From NCBI GenBank assembly GCA_029564935.1, contig JAKQPD010000196.1, positions 1 to 36,047 of the forward strand: a stretch of 36,047 nucleotides of DNA, read 5' to 3'. The notes below the pieces were generated by a model, which saw nothing but the letters and a program-made list of their open reading frames with translations, had not been told where the DNA came from and searched no databases. The translations under genes were made by a program, and so were the position numbers. The stretch comes from Bacteroidota bacterium (GTDB taxonomy: Bacteria > Bacteroidota > Bacteroidia > Bacteroidales > VadinHA17). This document shows positions 14,498 to 36,047 of the stretch, piece after piece. Positions within the stretch are counted from its first letter, which is position 1, and each line of letters begins with the position of its first letter.

Positions 14498-14765
14498 TAT
14501 GTCTTGTTTTCTTATTGTTTGATACTTTGAATATATCACAAAATATTTATAATTTTACCTTTCAATATCATTATCAGATGGATTTTTCTTATAACGTCAA
14601 ATTACAGTTCCGGTATCTGCCTGATAGATTAGAACGGTAATCCGGGCGGTTATATTTTATAAGGGAATTCCTCATAATTATATAAAATCCAATAGCTGCG
14701 GCAAGGGATAAAAATTTACATCCCTACGGTTGAGTACCATTTTGTCCGGATTAGACGTAGTTATT

Positions 14766-16142
14766 ATGAAGTTACCAACATTTGAGCCTTATAAAATAAA
14801 GATGACTGAGCCTGTTTATACAAGCTCGCGTGAGGAGAGGGAAAAATGGATCAGGGATGCTTCATTCAATGTATTCAATCTGAAATCAGAACAGGTAATA
14901 ATTGATCTTCTGACCGATACCGGTACAGGAGCTATGAGTGACAGGCAATGGTCGGCTATGCTGACGGGAGATGAAAGCTTTGCAGGATCATCATCATATC
15001 AGAATCTTACTAAGGTTGTCACAGGGATGACAGGATTTCCGTGGGTTATTCCTGCACATCAGGGCCGGGCAGCAGAGAATATTTTATTTTCAACTCTTAT
15101 AAAGGAAGGTGATATTGTTCCGGGGAACCTGCTTTTTGATACTCTTACAGGGCAAATTGAATTCAGAAAGGCTATTCCTGTCGACTGCACAATTAAGGAG
15201 GCCAACGACCTATACAGCTGGTTTCCTTTTAAAGGGAACCTTAATCTTGCCAAGCTGGATGATATTATAAGGAATAATCCGCTGGAAAAAATATCCTGTA
15301 TAATAATTTCTATAACCAACAATTCAGCCGGGGGTCAGCCGGTCAGCATGGAGAATCTGCGCGGGGTCCGGGGTATTGCTGATAAATATGGTATAAAAGT
15401 ATTCCTCGATGCGGCAAGATTTGCTGAAAATGCATTCTTCATCAAAAGCAGGGAAACAGGTTATGCCGAAAAAAGCATCAGGGAGATCGCCTTTGAAATG
15501 TTTTCATATGCCGACGGGATGATGATGAGTGCAAAAGAAGATGCCCTTGTCAATACCGGAGGATTCACTGCTTACCGCGATGAGGAGCTTTTCCGTAAAG
15601 CAAGCGGATTCAATATAATTTATGAAGGATTTACAACAGGCGGCGGTATGTCGGGAAGGGATATGAATGCCATGGCAACCGGATTAACCGAAGCGATTGA
15701 TCCGGAATATCTTAAAGCCAGGATGAACCAGATTTCATTTCTGGGATCAAAACTTATGGAATATGGTATCCCCGTAATAGAGCCATTTGGAGGCCATGCT
15801 GTATATATCGATGCAGAAAGATTTCTGCCCATGGTGCCAAAGGAAGAGTTCCCGGCCCAGGTCCTTGTATGCGAAATTTATATTGAGGGCGGTGTAAGAG
15901 TCAGCGAAGTTGGAACACTGATGGCTAACAGGAACCCTGTGACCCGTGAAAACAGATATCCTTTGAATGAATTTGTCAGACTGGCAGTTCCACGAAGAGT
16001 ATATTCCGATAACCATATGGCATACGTCGCCGCAGTTGTCAAGAATGTTTTCAACAGGAAAGGAAATATAAATAAAGGATACCGGATCAAAAAGGAAGAG
16101 CCTATACTTCGTCAGTTCACTCTTGAACTTGAAGCCATCTGA
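14766..16142 (+). CDS. Tryptophanase/tyrosine phenol-lyase homologue lacking the PLP lysine
   Basis: This 458-residue protein covers the whole length of the aromatic beta-eliminating lyases. Start: the ATG at 14766 gives MKLPTFEPYK, which aligns with the family N-terminus; a TTG 12 codons upstream is less likely. Family landmarks present are VIIDLLTDTGTGAMSD, HQGRAAEN (R101), LLFDTLTG, NNSAGGQPVS and DAARFAENAFFIK (D215, R218). The PLP-lysine motif, MSGKKD in tyrosine phenol-lyase, reads MSAKEDALVNTGG: the Schiff-base lysine position is E258. The active-site tyrosine of the GDEAYAGS motif is also replaced (GDESFAGS, F72). The residue matching TPL Arg381 is Val, as in tryptophanases where it is Ile. 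Losing both catalytic residues suggests a non-PLP or repurposed protein. It precedes yicC by 55 bases. Confidence 0.85.
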   Translation: MKLPTFEPYKIKMTEPVYTSSREEREKWIRDASFNVFNLKSEQVIIDLLTDTGTGAMSDRQWSAMLTGDESFAGSSSYQNLTKVVTGMTGFPWVIPAHQGRAAENILFSTLIKEGDIVPGNLLFDTLTGQIEFRKAIPVDCTIKEANDLYSWFPFKGNLNLAKLDDIIRNNPLEKISCIIISITNNSAGGQPVSMENLRGVRGIADKYGIKVFLDAARFAENAFFIKSRETGYAEKSIREIAFEMFSYADGMMMSAKEDALVNTGGFTAYRDEELFRKASGFNIIYEGFTTGGGMSGRDMNAMATGLTEAIDPEYLKARMNQISFLGSKLMEYGIPVIEPFGGHAVYIDAERFLPMVPKEEFPAQVLVCEIYIEGGVRVSEVGTLMANRNPVTRENRYPLNEFVRLAVPRRVYSDNHMAYVAAVVKNVFNRKGNINKGYRIKKEEPILRQFTLELEAI

Positions 16143-24194: not shown

Positions 24195-26252
24195 TCATTT
24201 TTCAATCCTTATTCTTGCATCGACAACCGTAATTGCTTCCGGACTGCCAATGAGTGGATTGAGATCCACTTCTTTTATTTCTGTAGCAAATCTGAGCAGG
24301 CTTGATAATCTGACGATTATCTCGGCAAGTTTATGTTCGCTGACACCCGGTTTACCTCTTGTCCCACGTATTATCCTGTAGCCTCTGAGACTGCGTATCA
24401 TAGATTTGGCTTCATCGAAAGTCAGCGGGGCAAGACCTGATGAAACATCTCCGAGTACCTCAACAAAGATCCCGCCCAGACCGCAGAGAATAACATGTCC
24501 GAATTTCGGTTCATATTTAGCTCCGATGAAAAGTTCTGTTCCGGTGACCATTCTCTGTATCAGAACAGCCCTGACGCCGCTGATCTTCATCATTCTCCTG
24601 AACTCAGCTTCCAGGTGTGCCATGGTCTTGATGTTCAGGGTAACACCTCCAACATCCGATTTATGAACCGGTCCTATTACTTTGAGAGTCAGAGGAAATC
24701 CGGCTTTTCCAGCAATATCTCTCAGTTCTTTTAAGGTCCTGACAACAGCTTCTTTAACAAGGGGGATGTTTGCGGCCCTCAGAAGCTGCTGGATTACATC
24801 CGGATCCAGATAACCTGAGGATGATTTATCTATGATGGTCCGGATCAGCGGCACATCAATATCCTTAAGGAAGATCTTTTCTTCAGCAGGGAAAGGTGTG
24901 TTTGATATTTTTGTCAAAGCCCTTCCAAGTACAACCTCGTCGGGAAAGTTGACATGTCCTTTCCCCAGGAAATATTCGAGTTCGTTGTATGAGCTTGATA
25001 TTGATGGTAAAATTGGGAAAAGCGGTTTACTGCATTCTTCAATCTTCCTGTGAAGAAGATCATAAATCACAGCCATGTCATTCAGTCCGTTGCTGCCGAA
25101 TATTACTATCATTCCATCAATTTCAGGCATCCGTCTGTCGACATAATCAATTATTTTATCAAGCTGTTCATCGGTGGCAGTTGCGATCATATCGATCGGA
25201 TTATTCGCCGAAGCACCCGGATTCATCATTGCCAGCAGGTTATCATGATGTTCACCGGTGATCCGGGGTATTGACATTCCCCCAGCAGAAAGAGCATCGG
25301 TAAGCATTATCGCCGGCCCCCCTGCATGAGTAATGATGGCAATATTCCTTCCCTTGAGATGCTTATGGGAAAAAACAGATGCAACAGTTGTAAGCTCCTC
25401 CCTTCCGGCACACCGTACAATACCTGCTTTTCTGAACAACGCCTCCACTGCAGAATCGGAGGAGGCAAGGGCTCCGGTATGGGAAGATGCTGCCCTCATT
25501 CCCGCTTCACTGGTCCCTGACTTTATTGCAGCTATCCTGCAACCTTTCCTTATCAGCGATGACGCATGATGAAGCATTTTATCGGGGTCTCTTATCTCTT
25601 CAACATATATCAGCTTTATAGGAGAACTTAGTCCCGGATCGAAATTGTTGTCCCAGTATTCAAGTACCTCCTCAACACCCGTCTGGGCGCTGTTTCCCAC
25701 TGAAAAAAAACTTGTAAAGGTCACACCTTTGGGGATTGCGGACTCAAATATAAAAACAGCAGTGGCTCCCGAACCCGAAACAAAATCACAGCCCCGGTCG
25801 CTCAGTCTGGGAACAGGAGTGGTGAAAACTCCGTTATAATTCCGGGTGATCACACCTATACAATTCGGGCCGATAAGAGATCCTCCGCATTCACTTATCC
25901 TGTCAGCAATTAATGTTTCGAACATTCTTCCCTCCTCACCCGATTCACTGAACCCCGCTGAAATAATAATACAAGCCCTGGTACCTTTTTCTCTTATCAA
26001 TATATCTACAGCCGGCAGACAATGCTTTGCCTGAACAGCAAGGATCGCAAGATCGACCTGAGGCAAATCATTGATATCACGATATGATTTCAGACCCTGG
26101 ATCATATCGTGACCCGGATTCACAACATACAGATTGCCGGCATAATTACCGTCAATTAAATTCTTGAGGATTTTCCCTCCCGGCTTGTAAAGATCATCCG
26201 ATCCCCCGATCACAACTATACCGGAGGGATTTATCAGCTTTTCATTTATCAT
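24195..26252 (-). CDS. ADP-forming acyl-CoA synthetase (ACD), fused alpha-beta
   Basis: This 685-residue fusion has the alpha part first: a CoA-binding Rossmann domain with NPSGIVVIGGSDD (1-120), then two succinyl-CoA-ligase-like domains with LIGPNCIGV and VSGSGATAVF. The phosphohistidine motif AASSHTGALASSD contains H258. From about 480 follows the ATP-grasp beta part with GFPLTLKVIGPVHKSDVGGV and CGLGGIFVEVLGDVS. ACD makes ATP from acyl-CoA, ADP and phosphate, releasing the acid, and is the energy-conserving last step of amino-acid fermentation in many anaerobes. The gene is first in the minus-strand operon; 86 bases separate it from the ACT gene. Confidence 0.93.
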   Translation of the reverse strand: MINEKLINPSGIVVIGGSDDLYKPGGKILKNLIDGNYAGNLYVVNPGHDMIQGLKSYRDINDLPQVDLAILAVQAKHCLPAVDILIREKGTRACIIISAGFSESGEEGRMFETLIADRISECGGSLIGPNCIGVITRNYNGVFTTPVPRLSDRGCDFVSGSGATAVFIFESAIPKGVTFTSFFSVGNSAQTGVEEVLEYWDNNFDPGLSSPIKLIYVEEIRDPDKMLHHASSLIRKGCRIAAIKSGTSEAGMRAASSHTGALASSDSAVEALFRKAGIVRCAGREELTTVASVFSHKHLKGRNIAIITHAGGPAIMLTDALSAGGMSIPRITGEHHDNLLAMMNPGASANNPIDMIATATDEQLDKIIDYVDRRMPEIDGMIVIFGSNGLNDMAVIYDLLHRKIEECSKPLFPILPSISSSYNELEYFLGKGHVNFPDEVVLGRALTKISNTPFPAEEKIFLKDIDVPLIRTIIDKSSSGYLDPDVIQQLLRAANIPLVKEAVVRTLKELRDIAGKAGFPLTLKVIGPVHKSDVGGVTLNIKTMAHLEAEFRRMMKISGVRAVLIQRMVTGTELFIGAKYEPKFGHVILCGLGGIFVEVLGDVSSGLAPLTFDEAKSMIRSLRGYRIIRGTRGKPGVSEHKLAEIIVRLSSLLRFATEIKEVDLNPLIGSPEAITVVDARIRIEK

Positions 26253-26407: not shown

Positions 26408-26527
26408 ACCCCGAATTAACAAAAGCAATATAGTAAAAAAATATCAGTAAAATTAAGTATTAAGATCATTATCATTCCCCGCCGGAAGCAGTCACTAAAA
26501 TTTTCTTTAACTTTTTCATGATGAATC

Positions 26528-26558
26528 TTTGATTTTTTCTGAAATTACATTACGTTTG
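26528..26558 (+). promoter_or_regulatory. Consensus promoter of the attenuated lyase gene
   Basis: TTTG (26528-26531), 19 bases, then TACGTTTG (26551-26558) is an exact match to the Bacteroidota TTTG-N19-TAnnTTTG promoter. Transcription should start near 26565, giving a leader of about 170 bases before the gene at 26738. It lies in the 485-base gap between the ACD operon and this gene. Confidence 0.8.
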
Positions 26559-26575
26559 GAATCAAATTTCAAGAA

Positions 26576-26659
26576 ATGACGATAATAAAATTAAATATTG
26601 GAATCTATTATTGTTATTATTGCAATTGCAGGTCAGGCAGTCCTGTGAAATATGTGTAA
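26576..26659 (+). CDS. Leader peptide, 27 residues, Tyr/Cys-rich
   Basis: The ATG lies about a dozen bases after the predicted transcript start. Residues 10-18 read IYYCYYCNC: four Tyr codons (TAT) and three Cys codons within eight codons. Residues 19-27 are RSGSPVKYV. The TAA at 26657-26659 precedes the terminator hairpin by 23 bases. Codons 21-23 contain the segment that can pair with the 5' arm of the terminator, so ribosome position would decide which structure forms. The peptide itself is predicted to have no function beyond sensing. Tyr codons are favoured by AT-rich DNA, but the clustering and position argue against chance. Confidence 0.65.
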   Translation: MTIIKLNIGIYYCYYCNCRSGSPVKYV

Positions 26660-26691
26660 CAAACCATAAATTCATGAATATGAGGCTTGCC
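26636..26691 (+). promoter_or_regulatory. Candidate antiterminator of the lyase attenuator
   Basis: GGCAGTCCT (26636-26644) can pair with AGGCTTGCC (26683-26691), the 5' arm of the terminator, in eight of nine positions, including one G-U pair and one mismatch (T41 with C86). The two structures are mutually exclusive. The upstream arm begins 16 bases after the last codon of the Tyr-Tyr-Cys-Tyr-Tyr run, and so would be free when a ribosome stalls there but masked or disturbed when it reaches the stop codon. Confidence 0.6.
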
Positions 26692-26717
26692 AAAAAAGAG
26701 GTAAGCCTTTTTTTTTT
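26683..26717 (+). terminator. Intrinsic terminator in the lyase leader (attenuator)
   Basis: AGGCTTGCC (26683-26691) pairs with GGTAAGCCT (26700-26708) over nine positions with one G-U pair. The loop is AAAAAAGA, and ten T residues follow (26708-26717). It ends 20 bases before the lyase ATG. No plus-strand gene lies upstream for it to terminate, because the preceding operon runs the other way. It therefore acts on the leader transcript itself. Confidence 0.85.
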
Positions 26718-26737
26718 AATATTATAACAGACAAAAT

Positions 26738-28204
26738 ATGGACAAAAATCAGAAAAACGGAGCGGTAAAATTCTTTACCAGAAAACAGATCCCACTTGAG
26801 ATGCATAAAGTACGTATAGTCCAATCGCTTAATCTCCTGCCTGTAAACAAGAGGGTGGATGCGATAAAAGCAGCAGGTTTTAATTCCTTCCTGCTGAGCA
26901 GCGGTGATGTATTCCTTGATATGCTGACGGACAGCGGGACCAACGCGATGAGCGATAATCAGATCTCAAAAATGTTCGTAGCCGATGATGCCTATGCCGG
27001 CTCGATGAGCTTTAAGAAATTTGAAAAAAGTGTGTTGCAGATATTCGGAAAGAAATTTGTTCTGCCGGCACATCAGGGAAGAGCCGCTGAAAATATTATT
27101 TCAAAAGTGTTCATTAAGGAAGGATCTGTGATCCCGATGAATTATCATTTCACAACCACACGCGCCCATATTGAACTTAACGGGGGAAAGATCTTTGAAC
27201 TTTTCGGTTCGGAAGCAATGAAAATAAAAAGCTCTCATCCTTTTAAAGGAAATCTCGATCCCGTGCAGCTTGAAAAAATAATTATTGAATCAGGTCCTCA
27301 AAACATTCCTTTTATAAGGATGGAAGCCTCAACGAACCTTATCGGCGGCCAGCCTTTCTCACTTGCAAATATGAAAGAAGTAAGAAAGATAGCCGACAAG
27401 TACAATCTTATAATTGTAATGGATGCCAGCCTTATAGGAGAAAATGCTTATTTTATAAAGAAACGTGAACCCGGGTATGAAGATCAGTCCCTTGCTTCAA
27501 TCCTTCTCCAGATGTGCGATCTTGCCGATATTGTTTATTTCTCCGGGAGAAAAGTCAGCTCATCAAGAGGTGGTGCAATCTGTACAAATTCCGAAGAGCT
27601 TTATACGAAAATGAAATATCTTATTCCCCTCTATGAAGGATTTCTGACATATGGAGGTATCTCGATCCGCGAGATTGAGGCAATGGCACAGGGACTTCTT
27701 GAAACTGTTGATGAAAATGTTGTGGGGCAATCACCGGCATTCATTAATTATATGGTACAGGAGCTTGAAAAACTCGGTATACCTGTCGTCAGTCCCGGCG
27801 GTGCCCTGGGATGCCACATTGATGCAACACAGTTCCTTTCACATATTCCTCAATCAGAATACCTGGCCGGATCACTTGTCGCAGCATTCTATATTGTTTC
27901 GGGGATCAGAGGTATGGAACGGGGAACCATAAGCAGCAATCGGGATGAAAAAGGAAATGATATTTTTTCAGATCTTGAACTATTAAGACTTGCGGTACCG
28001 CGAAGAGTATTTACCCTCTCACAGGTAGAATATGCGATTGACAGACTTAACTGGCTGTATCAGAACAGGAAACTGGTCGGCGGTTTAAGATTTGTTGAAG
28101 AACCTCCTGTTCTCAGGTTCTTTACAGGCAGGCTTGAAGCGGTCAGTGACTGGCCCGAAAAGCTTGCAGAAGCTTATAAAAAGGATTTCGGAGAAACTCT
28201 GTGA
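26738..28204 (+). CDS. Tyrosine phenol-lyase/tryptophanase homologue, TPL-like, with altered active site
   Basis: This 488-residue protein covers the full aromatic beta-eliminating lyase fold, with an extra N-terminal 20 residues and a short C-terminal tail. Landmarks are DMLTDSGTNAMSDNQ, Y86 in DDAYAGS, HQGRAAEN (R115), HFTTTRAH (F138, T139), LIGGQPFSLANM and D229. The PLP motif is YFSGRKVSSSRGG, with K272 at the Schiff-base position. GIRGMERG places R395 at TPL Arg381, the residue that selects tyrosine. The residue matching TPL Arg217 is L232, Lys256 is R271 and Asp258 is V273, so the cofactor pocket is unusual. Substrate is therefore uncertain (tyrosine, a related aryl amino acid or cysteine). 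The gene sits behind a Tyr/Cys attenuator and is divergent from the amino-acid fermentation operon. Confidence 0.85.
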   Translation: MDKNQKNGAVKFFTRKQIPLEMHKVRIVQSLNLLPVNKRVDAIKAAGFNSFLLSSGDVFLDMLTDSGTNAMSDNQISKMFVADDAYAGSMSFKKFEKSVLQIFGKKFVLPAHQGRAAENIISKVFIKEGSVIPMNYHFTTTRAHIELNGGKIFELFGSEAMKIKSSHPFKGNLDPVQLEKIIIESGPQNIPFIRMEASTNLIGGQPFSLANMKEVRKIADKYNLIIVMDASLIGENAYFIKKREPGYEDQSLASILLQMCDLADIVYFSGRKVSSSRGGAICTNSEELYTKMKYLIPLYEGFLTYGGISIREIEAMAQGLLETVDENVVGQSPAFINYMVQELEKLGIPVVSPGGALGCHIDATQFLSHIPQSEYLAGSLVAAFYIVSGIRGMERGTISSNRDEKGNDIFSDLELLRLAVPRRVFTLSQVEYAIDRLNWLYQNRKLVGGLRFVEEPPVLRFFTGRLEAVSDWPEKLAEAYKKDFGETL

Positions 28205-34219: not shown

Positions 34220-36047
34220 TCACTCCTTCTTCCTTGGCAACACAATTCTGAACCTGGTTCCCGTCGGACCCTTTGCCGGATCTGTATTTGATTCGACTGT
34301 GATCTGACCCTTATGCATTTTAACGATGCCATAAGTTGTAGCCAGACCGAGCCCTGTTCCGTGTCCGAGTCCTTTAGTGGTATAGAATGGCTCAAATATC
34401 TTCACTCTGTCCTCTTCCTTTATTCCCGTCCCGGAATCTCCGACTGTAATTGTGACATCACTGAGAGTATCTTCCAGGAGGATACTTATTTCGCCTCCTC
34501 CAGGCATTGCATCGAGGGCATTCTTTATAAGGTTTGACAGAACCTGTATCATCTGTTCGGAATCCAGCATTGCATCAGGATCAGTAGCCTGATCAGCTAA
34601 CTTAACGGTTACATTCTCGGGTACAATGACACTTTCAAGACTGTGTGTCACCAGTTCCTTTATGTTTACCAGCTGATGGTTAACCTGGCTTTTCCTGGCG
34701 AAATTGAGCAGTCCTCCTACTATTTTCTTGCATCTGCCAGCCTGTTCCACAATGAGCTTCAGATCCTCCCTGACCGGGTCATCGGGAGTACTTTCGTCGA
34801 GCAGGATATTGCTGTACATTATTACAATTCCCAGCGGGTTATTCAGTTCATGGGCAATACCTGCCGACAGCTGACCCATATGAGCAAGCTTTTCAGACTG
34901 CTTCAGAGCCTGCTGCATGGAGCTCAGCTTTTCGTTTGAAAGTGCCAGCTCATTTACCGATTTATGAAGTTTTTCTATAGTATAAGGCAGACACATTTCA
35001 ATCTCGGCCAGACCTTTCTTGACAGCAGCTGCATGTTCAATACAGGTTTCATAACCGCAGGCTCCGCAATTCAGATGATCTTTTTTTGTAAGCTTGCCCA
35101 TTGCTACAAGAACCTCGTTTACATCCTCCTCATCGGGGTCATGGAGACGATGATCATCAGCCCTGTGATATACCGAGAGGTCAAGTTCAGAATATTTCTC
35201 AATATATGATTTCCAGGTATCCATATCAATACCTTCCATCTTAAGGTTTGCATATGTACTGACAAGGGCTCGTCTGTTATATTGTTTTCCGTTCTTTGAA
35301 AGTCCCGGTCCCATTATGCAACCCTCACAGCATAACAGCTCCATGTTCTGTTTCTTTATAAGTCCTGCCTCAAATTCCTTCAGGGCTTCCTGGAAACCTA
35401 TTCTCCCTTCGGCTGCAATAATATTCCCTGTGATTGCATCATCATTAATGTTAGCGGTCTGAAGCAAACCCCTGGTCACAGGGAAGATCGCTCCTCTTCC
35501 GCCAACCGGAGGATCAAAATCAGATGGCTGAACATTTTCAGAAGTGATGCCAAGCTGTACCAGCATTTCCCTGAGCTCGCTGAAGGTTATCGCTTCATCA
35601 ACATCGCTGCTTTCAGCTTTCTTCGCAACGCACGGACCAATAAAAACAATCTTTGTCGATTCCCCATATTTCGCGTGAATGACTCTTGCCATCGCAACCA
35701 TCGGCGAAACAACCGGAGCCAGCCTGTCTACAAGACCCGGATGGTAATATTTTACATAATTGACAATTGAGGGACAGTCGGAAGTGATAAAATTCTCCCT
35801 GCTTTCCTCTACCAGCTTCCTATATCTGTCAGCAACCAGATCTGCACCAAAAGAAACTTCAGCAATATATTTAAAACCTATTGCCCGTATCATGCCGATA
35901 AGCTTACGGTGATCCGGGATATCGAAAAATTCTGCCGGAAAACTTGGTGCAATGATTGCTGCAACCTCCTTTTCTTCAGAAAGTAGATTAAGTACCCTGT
36001 CAGTAGTGCTGAGATACACCTTGGCTCCCTGGCTGCAGACTTTTGTG
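34220..36047 (-). CDS. [FeFe]-hydrogenase-like iron-sulfur sensor histidine kinase (N-terminus beyond right edge)
   Basis: The frame is open to the right edge; upstream of the GTG at 36019 it reads TKVCSQGAKVYLST, the end of a ferredoxin-like cluster motif, so the gene is cut off. Numbering from 36019, residues 1-250 form a hydrogenase large-subunit C-terminal-like domain: TSDCPS (C82), GPCVAKKAES (C130), CCEGCIMGPGLSKNG (C230, C231, C234), and APSFPAEF. Residues 318-343 (CGACGYETC and a distal C) form a [4Fe-4S] domain. A coiled coil leads to HisKA (SAGIAHELNNPLGI, H390) and HATPase_c (LIKNALDAM, GDSGTGIKEED, FEPFYTTKGLGHGTGLGLA). It probably senses H2 or ferredoxin redox state and phosphorylates the adjacent response regulator. 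Confidence 0.9.
   Translation of the reverse strand, partial: TKVCSQGAKVYLSTTDRVLNLLSEEKEVAAIIAPSFPAEFFDIPDHRKLIGMIRAIGFKYIAEVSFGADLVADRYRKLVEESRENFITSDCPSIVNYVKYYHPGLVDRLAPVVSPMVAMARVIHAKYGESTKIVFIGPCVAKKAESSDVDEAITFSELREMLVQLGITSENVQPSDFDPPVGGRGAIFPVTRGLLQTANINDDAITGNIIAAEGRIGFQEALKEFEAGLIKKQNMELLCCEGCIMGPGLSKNGKQYNRRALVSTYANLKMEGIDMDTWKSYIEKYSELDLSVYHRADDHRLHDPDEEDVNEVLVAMGKLTKKDHLNCGACGYETCIEHAAAVKKGLAEIEMCLPYTIEKLHKSVNELALSNEKLSSMQQALKQSEKLAHMGQLSAGIAHELNNPLGIVIMYSNILLDESTPDDPVREDLKLIVEQAGRCKKIVGGLLNFARKSQVNHQLVNIKELVTHSLESVIVPENVTVKLADQATDPDAMLDSEQMIQVLSNLIKNALDAMPGGGEISILLEDTLSDVTITVGDSGTGIKEEDRVKIFEPFYTTKGLGHGTGLGLATTYGIVKMHKGQITVESNTDPAKGPTGTRFRIVLPRKKE

Follow-up and report, generated by a model that had tools for sequence, protein, structure and literature searches.

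Organization of the leader region

We analysed a 36,047-nt stretch of DNA from a Bacteroidota bacterium of the VadinHA17 lineage within the Bacteroidales (assembly GCA_029564935.1, contig JAKQPD010000196.1; hereafter the window), in which a gene for a pyridoxal 5'-phosphate (PLP) enzyme related to tyrosine phenol-lyase (TPL) is preceded by a region with the anatomy of a leader-peptide attenuator: a predicted short open reading frame (ORF) with a run of tyrosine codons, followed by an intrinsic terminator. The elements of this locus are the following.

26528..26558, plus strand: putative promoter of the Bacteroidota type, TTTG-N19-TACGTTTG (TTTG at 26528-26531, a 19-nt spacer, TACGTTTG at 26551-26558)
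26576..26659, plus strand: predicted leader ORF of 27 codons, MTIIKLNIGIYYCYYCNCRSGSPVKYV (ATG at 26576, TAA at 26657-26659)
26606..26620, plus strand: sensor codons Tyr11, Tyr12, Cys13, Tyr14 and Tyr15 (Tyr conserved among orthologues, Cys not)
26636..26644, plus strand: 5' strand of the antiterminator (segment 2), GGCAGTCCT (GGCAGTC in the window, GTAAGTC in most orthologues)
26682..26717, plus strand: intrinsic terminator (10-bp hairpin at 26682-26709, then a T run)
26738..28204, plus strand: gene of the TPL-like PLP enzyme (ATG at 26738; 488 amino acids), a third branch of the TPL/tryptophanase family

The promoter follows the consensus known for Bacteroidota. An original prediction, made from the letters of the window, had listed promoter, leader ORF, pairing segment, terminator and gene start, and all of these were found where it had placed them. 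Its claim that segment 2 (26636-26644) pairs with the 5' arm of the terminator (26683-26691) in eight of nine positions was reproduced, with one G-U pair among the eight and one U x C mismatch. The hairpin is the only terminator-like site between 26200 and 26760, where 0.2 would be expected, and because the upstream neighbour (24195-26252) lies on the minus strand and is divergent, the terminator can act only on the TPL-like transcript, as had been argued. A terminator belonging to the upstream gene is thus ruled out in the window; it is possible in loci of other genomes with a HydE-like gene upstream. The region 26555-26717 folds with a z-score of -2.61, and equal stability was reached by 3 of 200 shuffled sequences.

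No Rfam family reached its gathering threshold in the window, and T-box was not among the nine weak Rfam matches over 26430-26760, so a T-box riboswitch for tyrosine is not indicated. Neither is the tyrosine run a simple (TAT)n repeat: the 17 leaders described below mix 75 TAT with 16 TAC codons, and the run is not among the repeats listed by Tandem Repeats Finder.

Conservation of the leader in the family and chance controls

Among 117 genomes of the family-level group of the window, 24 (that of the window included) encode an orthologue of the TPL-like enzyme (61-100% identity), well separated from a tryptophanase-like paralogue at about 38% identity. One copy (L027) lacks its 5' part, which leaves 23 assessable orthologues, and 17 of these have a Tyr-rich leader ORF at the same place (L004, L009-L013, L015-L025). 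The promoter element TAnnTTTG is present in all 17 leaders and the complete pattern TTTG-N17-21-TAnnTTTG in 12. In the remaining six orthologues, the ORF has been lost with the terminator or a remnant of it kept (L005, L008), both ORF and terminator have been lost (L006, L007), the leader has decayed (L014), or no leader was found (L026); the promoter pattern is still present in L005-L008 and L014.

A short ORF with at least four Tyr in seven codons was found in 14 of the 17 leader regions (all except L017, L022 and L024), compared with 8 of 1700 dinucleotide shuffles. The combination of such an ORF with a terminator was detected in 12 leaders and in none of the 1700 shuffles, using a strict scan that alone detects terminators in 14 of the 17. 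When 104 mostly non-coding upstream regions of loci of the group were subjected to the same ORF test, 15 passed, 14 of which precede the TPL-like gene; the sole other region (L082, 5242-7300, minus strand) has no terminator by the same scan. These controls confirm that the attenuator unit is real and more than a product of chance.

Outside the family, neither inspection by eye nor an ORF scan revealed a comparable Tyr-run leader upstream of 36 order-level and 21 further orthologues, two of which (L102 and L107) offer only 92 and 188 nt of upstream sequence and a few of which have guessed start codons. In three loci of the order-level family f65 (L095, L098, L103) the TPL-like gene is closely preceded by short hairpins whose arms are of the GCTTAC/GTAAGC type; in L098 and L103 T residues come after the hairpin. 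The scan found no Tyr-run ORF there, and these hairpins are possibly another or a degenerate attenuator. The attenuator thus seems to have been acquired as a regulatory element within one family-level group and lost again, at least in the nearest relatives of the window. Orthologous leaders without the ORF or its Tyr codons, which the original prediction had named as evidence against attenuation, do exist, in L005-L008 and beyond the family, while 17 of 23 orthologues within it keep the Tyr ORF.

Tyrosine is also the conserved sensor residue. It accounts for 91 of the 391 residues of the 17 leaders, with three to nine Tyr codons in each, compared with 15 for cysteine. Five leaders have no Cys codon at all and only those of the window (five Tyr, three Cys) and L012 have two or more, so that Cys codons fall outside the conserved pattern. 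Cys13 and Cys16 of the window sit where a stalled ribosome could also free segment 2, and cysteine may contribute locally. From the end of the last Tyr codon to segment 2, 12-17 nt are found in 13 of the 17 leaders and 11 nt in L018; in L004, L010 and L022 an isolated later Tyr codon follows the run.

Two exclusive pairings and the position of the ribosome

In the alignment of the 17 leaders, 97.6% of the cells of the terminator stem are paired, four of its ten pairs show changes on both sides, and its covariation score was equalled in 2 of 500 shuffles. The alternative pairing of segment 2 with the 5' arm of the terminator is formed in 95% of the cells, compared with at most 58% when the two strands are slid against each other. 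Relative to the ORF, segment 2 lies in frame 0 in 13 leaders and in frame 2 in four, and the start of the stop codon ranges from 9 nt upstream to 24 nt downstream of the first base of segment 2. That segment 2 nonetheless hardly varies shows that it is conserved as RNA rather than for an encoded peptide. The two structures are mutually exclusive, the antiterminator being recognized by pairing and conservation and not by covariation. The compensatory changes that had been proposed as a check were accordingly seen in the terminator stem and not in the antiterminator.

The transcript up to the terminator loop was folded in a model in which the ribosome is assumed to hide 13 nt from the first base of the A-site codon, and from which Tyr codons ending less than 8 nt before segment 2 were omitted. 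When the last Tyr codon of the run occupies the A site, the antiterminator is predicted in all 17 leaders (5-9 pairs); when the stop codon does, it is predicted in one (L015, partial, four pairs) and absent from 16. In the window, stalls at Tyr11, Tyr12 and Tyr15 are each predicted to leave eight pairs. The informative part of this model lies in the placement of the codons: a ribosome at the stop codon would cover segment 2, and one at the Tyr run would leave it exposed.

A model for tyrosine-dependent attenuation

Given the established anatomy, conservation, two exclusive pairings and, within the folding model, dependence on the position of the ribosome, we consider the leader to be, very probably, an attenuator of transcription that works through the ribosome and responds to charged tyrosine tRNA. 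With ample tyrosine, the ribosome would pass the Tyr codons, reach the stop codon and cover segment 2, upon which the terminator would form and transcription would stop before the TPL-like gene. With little tyrosine, it would wait at a Tyr codon some 15 nt ahead of segment 2; the latter would then be free to pair with the terminator's 5' arm, and RNA polymerase would continue into the TPL-like gene. Tyrosine shortage is thus most likely the physiological signal that turns the gene on, because the attenuator architecture implies it.

Several observations weigh against this model or against its operation in the window. The four closest relatives of the window in the protein tree, L005-L008, have no leader ORF and two of them no terminator either; the element is therefore dispensable and may be decaying in the branch of the window. 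Covariation is absent from the antiterminator, whose score was reached in 500 of 500 shuffles, since its 5' strand, GTAAGTC, is almost invariant. The outcome of folding with the ribosome at the stop codon is largely due to the assumed 13-nt footprint, which hides segment 2, and no antiterminator is predicted for a stall at Tyr11 in L009, L011, L015 and L022. The window itself has the most deviant leader, with changes at two otherwise conserved positions of segment 2 that give two mismatches in the common register; its pairing in eight of nine positions requires a register shifted by one and still retains a mismatch, and an A site at Tyr14 leaves only two pairs.

The leader of the window could thus be a decaying remnant, with regulation lost in this species, and the loss of the ORF in the nearest relatives, the altered segment 2 and the three Cys codons in or after the Tyr run would all fit such a history. 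The ORF is open, however, promoter and terminator are intact, eight pairs are predicted at three of the Tyr codons, and a covariance model gives the window 105 bits (partly by construction, as the model includes the window sequence), so that we regard a remnant as unlikely.

Probable leader-peptide attenuation at other operons of the group

The covariance model (R1), built from the same 17 leaders, found 17 leader sites at 72-125 bits in the 117 family genomes, each before a TPL-like gene; these best sites are the ones it was built from, and their recovery is expected. With stricter filters, the best of 57 weaker rows reached 53 bits. Thirteen of the weaker sites were inspected and 12 of them precede ilvD-like (dihydroxy-acid dehydratase) genes, two of which were checked by profile; a scan found an Ile/Leu/Val-rich short ORF at 11 of the inspected loci. 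Ile/Leu/Val-rich leader peptides and, judged by eye, a GC-rich terminator were seen before the ilvD-like genes of L246-L252 and L254-L258, apparently an ilv attenuator of this Bacteroidales family. When run over 64 sources, R1 gave 11 matches up to an E value of 5: besides the window, it scored 36-40 bits at the family loci L076, L073 and L082, whose leaders have decayed, and six matches were weaker still; at L108, a site of 36.1 bits lies kilobases away from the TPL-like gene.

All 18 genomes inspected at pheA, which has tyrA nearby on its contig, carry a Phe/Tyr-rich short ORF upstream of pheA, for example MNKVYKYFASYFYFYFYFKNR; 16 of these genomes also have the TPL-like gene, and the strict scan detected a terminator in 7 of the 18 regions. 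Rfam Phe_leader matched three of the seven sources searched among these regions (L211-L228), always below threshold (best 36.4 compared with 55 bits). Leader peptides with codons for the very amino acids that the operon produces thus appear to control amino-acid synthesis in this group, and a leader with tyrosine codons only therefore predicts a gene that supplies tyrosine. With the ORF, the Tyr run, its spacing and both pairings in 17 orthologues, the covariation of the terminator and the parallels at pheA and ilvD, the ribosome-mediated attenuation that had originally been proposed is now strongly supported.

A third branch of the TPL/tryptophanase family

Among solved structures, TPLs are the nearest relatives of the enzyme encoded downstream of the leader, both in sequence and in predicted fold. 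Its predicted structure (mean predicted local distance difference test score, pLDDT, of 88.8) superimposes on the top TPL entries 9j3u, 2ez1 and 1c7g with template modelling (TM) scores of 0.86-0.89 at 39-41% identity. It matches the wide profiles that include TPL and tryptophanase (NF009709, 578.2 bits with a cut-off of 285; PF01212, 163.7 with a cut-off of 27) and remains below the cut-off of the TPL equivalog TIGR02618 (446.2 compared with 720.7 bits). In a FastTree phylogeny a long internal edge (0.61, support 1.0) separates the branch from both TPL and tryptophanase.

We aligned 44 members of this branch with one TPL. They comprise 23 sequences from the family and 21 named records from Bacteroidales, Opitutales, Verrucomicrobiaceae, Puniceicoccales, Ignavibacteria, Melioribacter, Zixibacteria, Proteobacteria and other groups, and none of the 36 order-level copies. 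In all 44, R217 of TPL is replaced by Leu, K256 by Arg and H343 by Leu, while K257 (the PLP lysine), D214, Y71, R100, R381, R404 and F448 are kept; T124 and M379 are kept in 42, and D258 is replaced by Val, Ser, Leu or Asn. The protein of the window has all four residues of what we take to be the phenol pocket (T124, M379, R381, F448). Of the residues presumed to form the PLP site of TPL, K257 and D214 are kept and R217 and K256 changed. At the TPL positions 124, 381 and 448, where we assume Asp, Ile or Val, and His to form the indole pocket of tryptophanase, it has Thr, Arg and Phe. Because the phenol-pocket residues of TPL are kept, the substrate looks tyrosine- or phenol-like; the changed residues suggest that the PLP chemistry may differ from that of TPL.

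A tryptophanase-like paralogue at 14730-16142 of the window (also in L259 and L260) carries Glu where TPL has its PLP-binding lysine, K257. The Glu recurs in open copies from the family genomes G080 and G053, in which D214 and K256 are replaced by Asn and Gln, whereas ten other paralogues of the family (L028, L029, L031-L033, L261-L265) retain the lysine. Judged from these residues, the Glu-bearing paralogue may be a maintained, PLP-less relative of tryptophanase.

A possible role in tyrosine supply and the genomic setting of the enzyme

TPL is known as a catabolic enzyme and is run in reverse in industry. We tentatively propose, with a little less than even confidence, that the TPL-like enzyme raises the supply of tyrosine, for example by reverse TPL chemistry or by salvage of a phenolic precursor. 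What speaks against this is that pheA and tyrA are present in the genome of the window and that PF02153 is found in 30 of the 36 order-level genomes with the enzyme. Since tyrA co-occurs with it in these genomes, the enzyme is not needed as a replacement of TyrA, and we rejected that role; two family genomes, G053 and G065 (90% and 83% complete), have the enzyme gene and no PF02153 match. The original suggestion that the enzyme makes or salvages tyrosine is thus plausible and better supported than before, with the classical pathway already in the genome and the altered PLP-site residues as its weak points.

In several family genomes the gene lies in a hydrogenase-maturation neighbourhood. At L084 the order on one strand is hydE, leader, TPL-like gene, TM1266 and hydG, and in nine family loci genes that cluster with HydE are located directly upstream on the same strand (only that of L084 was checked by profile). 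By coordinates, HydG is encoded within 5 kb in 9 of the 16 family genomes with both genes, and downstream on the same strand in four of these nine. HydG splits tyrosine, and tyrosine and cysteine are both used in assembly of the H-cluster.

This neighbourhood prompted a search for HydG (TIGR03955) over 393 order-level and 117 family genomes, with a cut-off of E 1e-100 for the family. A genome-level link was not found: outside the family HydG is present in 18 of 36 genomes with the TPL-like gene compared with 230 of 393 overall, and 8 of the 24 family genomes with the gene, that of the window included, have no match at the cut-off. HydE above its cut-off was found in none of the five genomes of or near the branch of the window. 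The leader is kept in 13 of 15 assessable genomes with HydG and in 4 of 8 without, a comparison that comprises too few independent events. It is conceivable that the whole element serves [FeFe]-hydrogenase maturation, the attenuator and the TPL-like gene adjusting the supply of the tyrosine that HydG consumes. The gene order of L084, the HydE-like genes of nine loci and the proximity of HydG would suit this explanation, but with HydG missing from a third of the family genomes that carry the gene, no association beyond the family and no HydE around the branch of the window, we think it unlikely. We see a better, if still doubtful, chance for a combined view, in which the third-branch enzyme makes or spares tyrosine in vivo (e.g. 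from phenol and a three-carbon amino-acid unit) under a tyrosine-only attenuator in one Bacteroidales family; in species with hydG next on the same strand, this switch would also tie tyrosine supply to the assembly of the [FeFe]-hydrogenase cofactor.

The use of both amino acids for the H-cluster near hydE and hydG would also favour a dual sensor, in which a stall at either Tyr or Cys turns the gene on, as the original prediction had it. The window has three Cys codons beside its five Tyr codons, and 12 of the 17 leaders contain one or more Cys, often at the end of the run. Yet five leaders do without Cys, only two have more than one, and the genome of the window has no HydG match; single Cys codons can drift in because Tyr to Cys is a one-base change. 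A dual sensor is therefore improbable: the tyrosine part of the earlier claim stands, with at least three Tyr codons in every leader, and cysteine as a conserved feature does not.

Two other parts of the window touch on these subjects. At 34220-36019 an iron-hydrogenase large-subunit domain and a small Fe-S domain are fused to a histidine kinase, in a genome with no HydG match and no HydE above the cut-off. On the minus strand between 18341 and 26252 lie genes for 2-oxoacid:ferredoxin oxidoreductase subunits, a class I/II aminotransferase, a PaaK-like CoA ligase, a paired-ACT protein and an ADP-forming acyl-CoA ligase, a cluster that by its predicted functions looks like arylpyruvate/arylacetate metabolism. 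A PaaK-like gene is located upstream of the TPL-like gene in 14 family loci, that of the window included.

Comparison with known systems and implications

Like the attenuators of the amino-acid operons (trp, his, phe, ilv, leu, thr), the element of the window combines a short ORF with a run of codons for one amino acid, alternative terminator and antiterminator structures and a switch operated by the ribosome, with a spacing at which segment 2 stays free when the ribosome stalls. It differs in sensing tyrosine alone and in its target, which belongs to the TPL/tryptophanase family and lies outside the known tyrosine pathway. In type the attenuator is classical, while its sensor specificity and the kind of gene that it controls seem to be new. 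Leader-peptide attenuation in general is treated in PMC2965389 and PMC4833913; according to a statement in the former (2010), such systems were known only from Proteobacteria and Actinobacteria, in addition to its own case from Firmicutes. From Bacteroidota, the leader family Bacteroid-trp (RF01692) is listed in Table 1 of PMC2864571. It was the better scoring of two amino-acid leaders among the nine weak Rfam matches, but the window reaches only 24.6 bits compared with a gathering threshold of 49 and has tyrosine instead of tryptophan codons. Table 7 of PMC1173090 gives a putative attenuator before pheA...tyrA of Bacteroides thetaiotaomicron. The Phe/Tyr leader before pheA in the genomes studied here shares group, device and aromatic codons with the leader of the TPL-like gene, and differs in its mixed Phe and Tyr codons, in its terminator and in controlling the classical pathway. 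In the titles and abstract openings of the open-licence literature we found no tyrosine leader and no attenuator of a TPL, which is no proof of absence in print.

With the TPLs 9j3u, 2ez1 and 1c7g the enzyme of the window shares the fold and T124, M379, R381, F448 and K257, whereas in its branch R217, K256 and H343 are changed and TIGR02618 is not reached. Known TPLs are activated by TyrR and are described in PMC1173090 as catabolic enzymes recruited to TyrR regulons. This catabolic role of characterized TPLs, with TyrR activation in Erwinia and Citrobacter (PMC1173090), would suit an arrest like that of TnaC, in which the ribosome would halt on the leader peptide when tyrosine is in excess, and a catabolic lyase would thereby be switched on. 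TnaC of the enteric tna operon likewise precedes a member of the same enzyme family, but it senses excess free tryptophan and blocks Rho; the leaders described here have consecutive Tyr runs of varying length and context and no fixed arrest peptide, an intrinsic terminator with an exclusive antiterminator, and a run about 15 nt from segment 2, for which a stall at shortage is the expected mode, and Phe/Tyr and Ile/Leu/Val leaders precede biosynthetic genes in these bacteria, all of which makes a TnaC-like arrest highly improbable.

The predicted relief of attenuation at tyrosine shortage offers a clue to the direction of the enzyme that is independent of its sequence, which alone would file it as a degradative lyase. 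The tyrosine-only leader predicts a tyrosine-supplying role for a widespread and apparently unstudied branch with altered PLP-site residues, and a natural anabolic relative of TPL would, if true, be of wide interest. Together with the leaders before pheA and the ilvD-like genes, it points to leader-peptide attenuation as a habit extending over several operons in a group of Bacteroidota.

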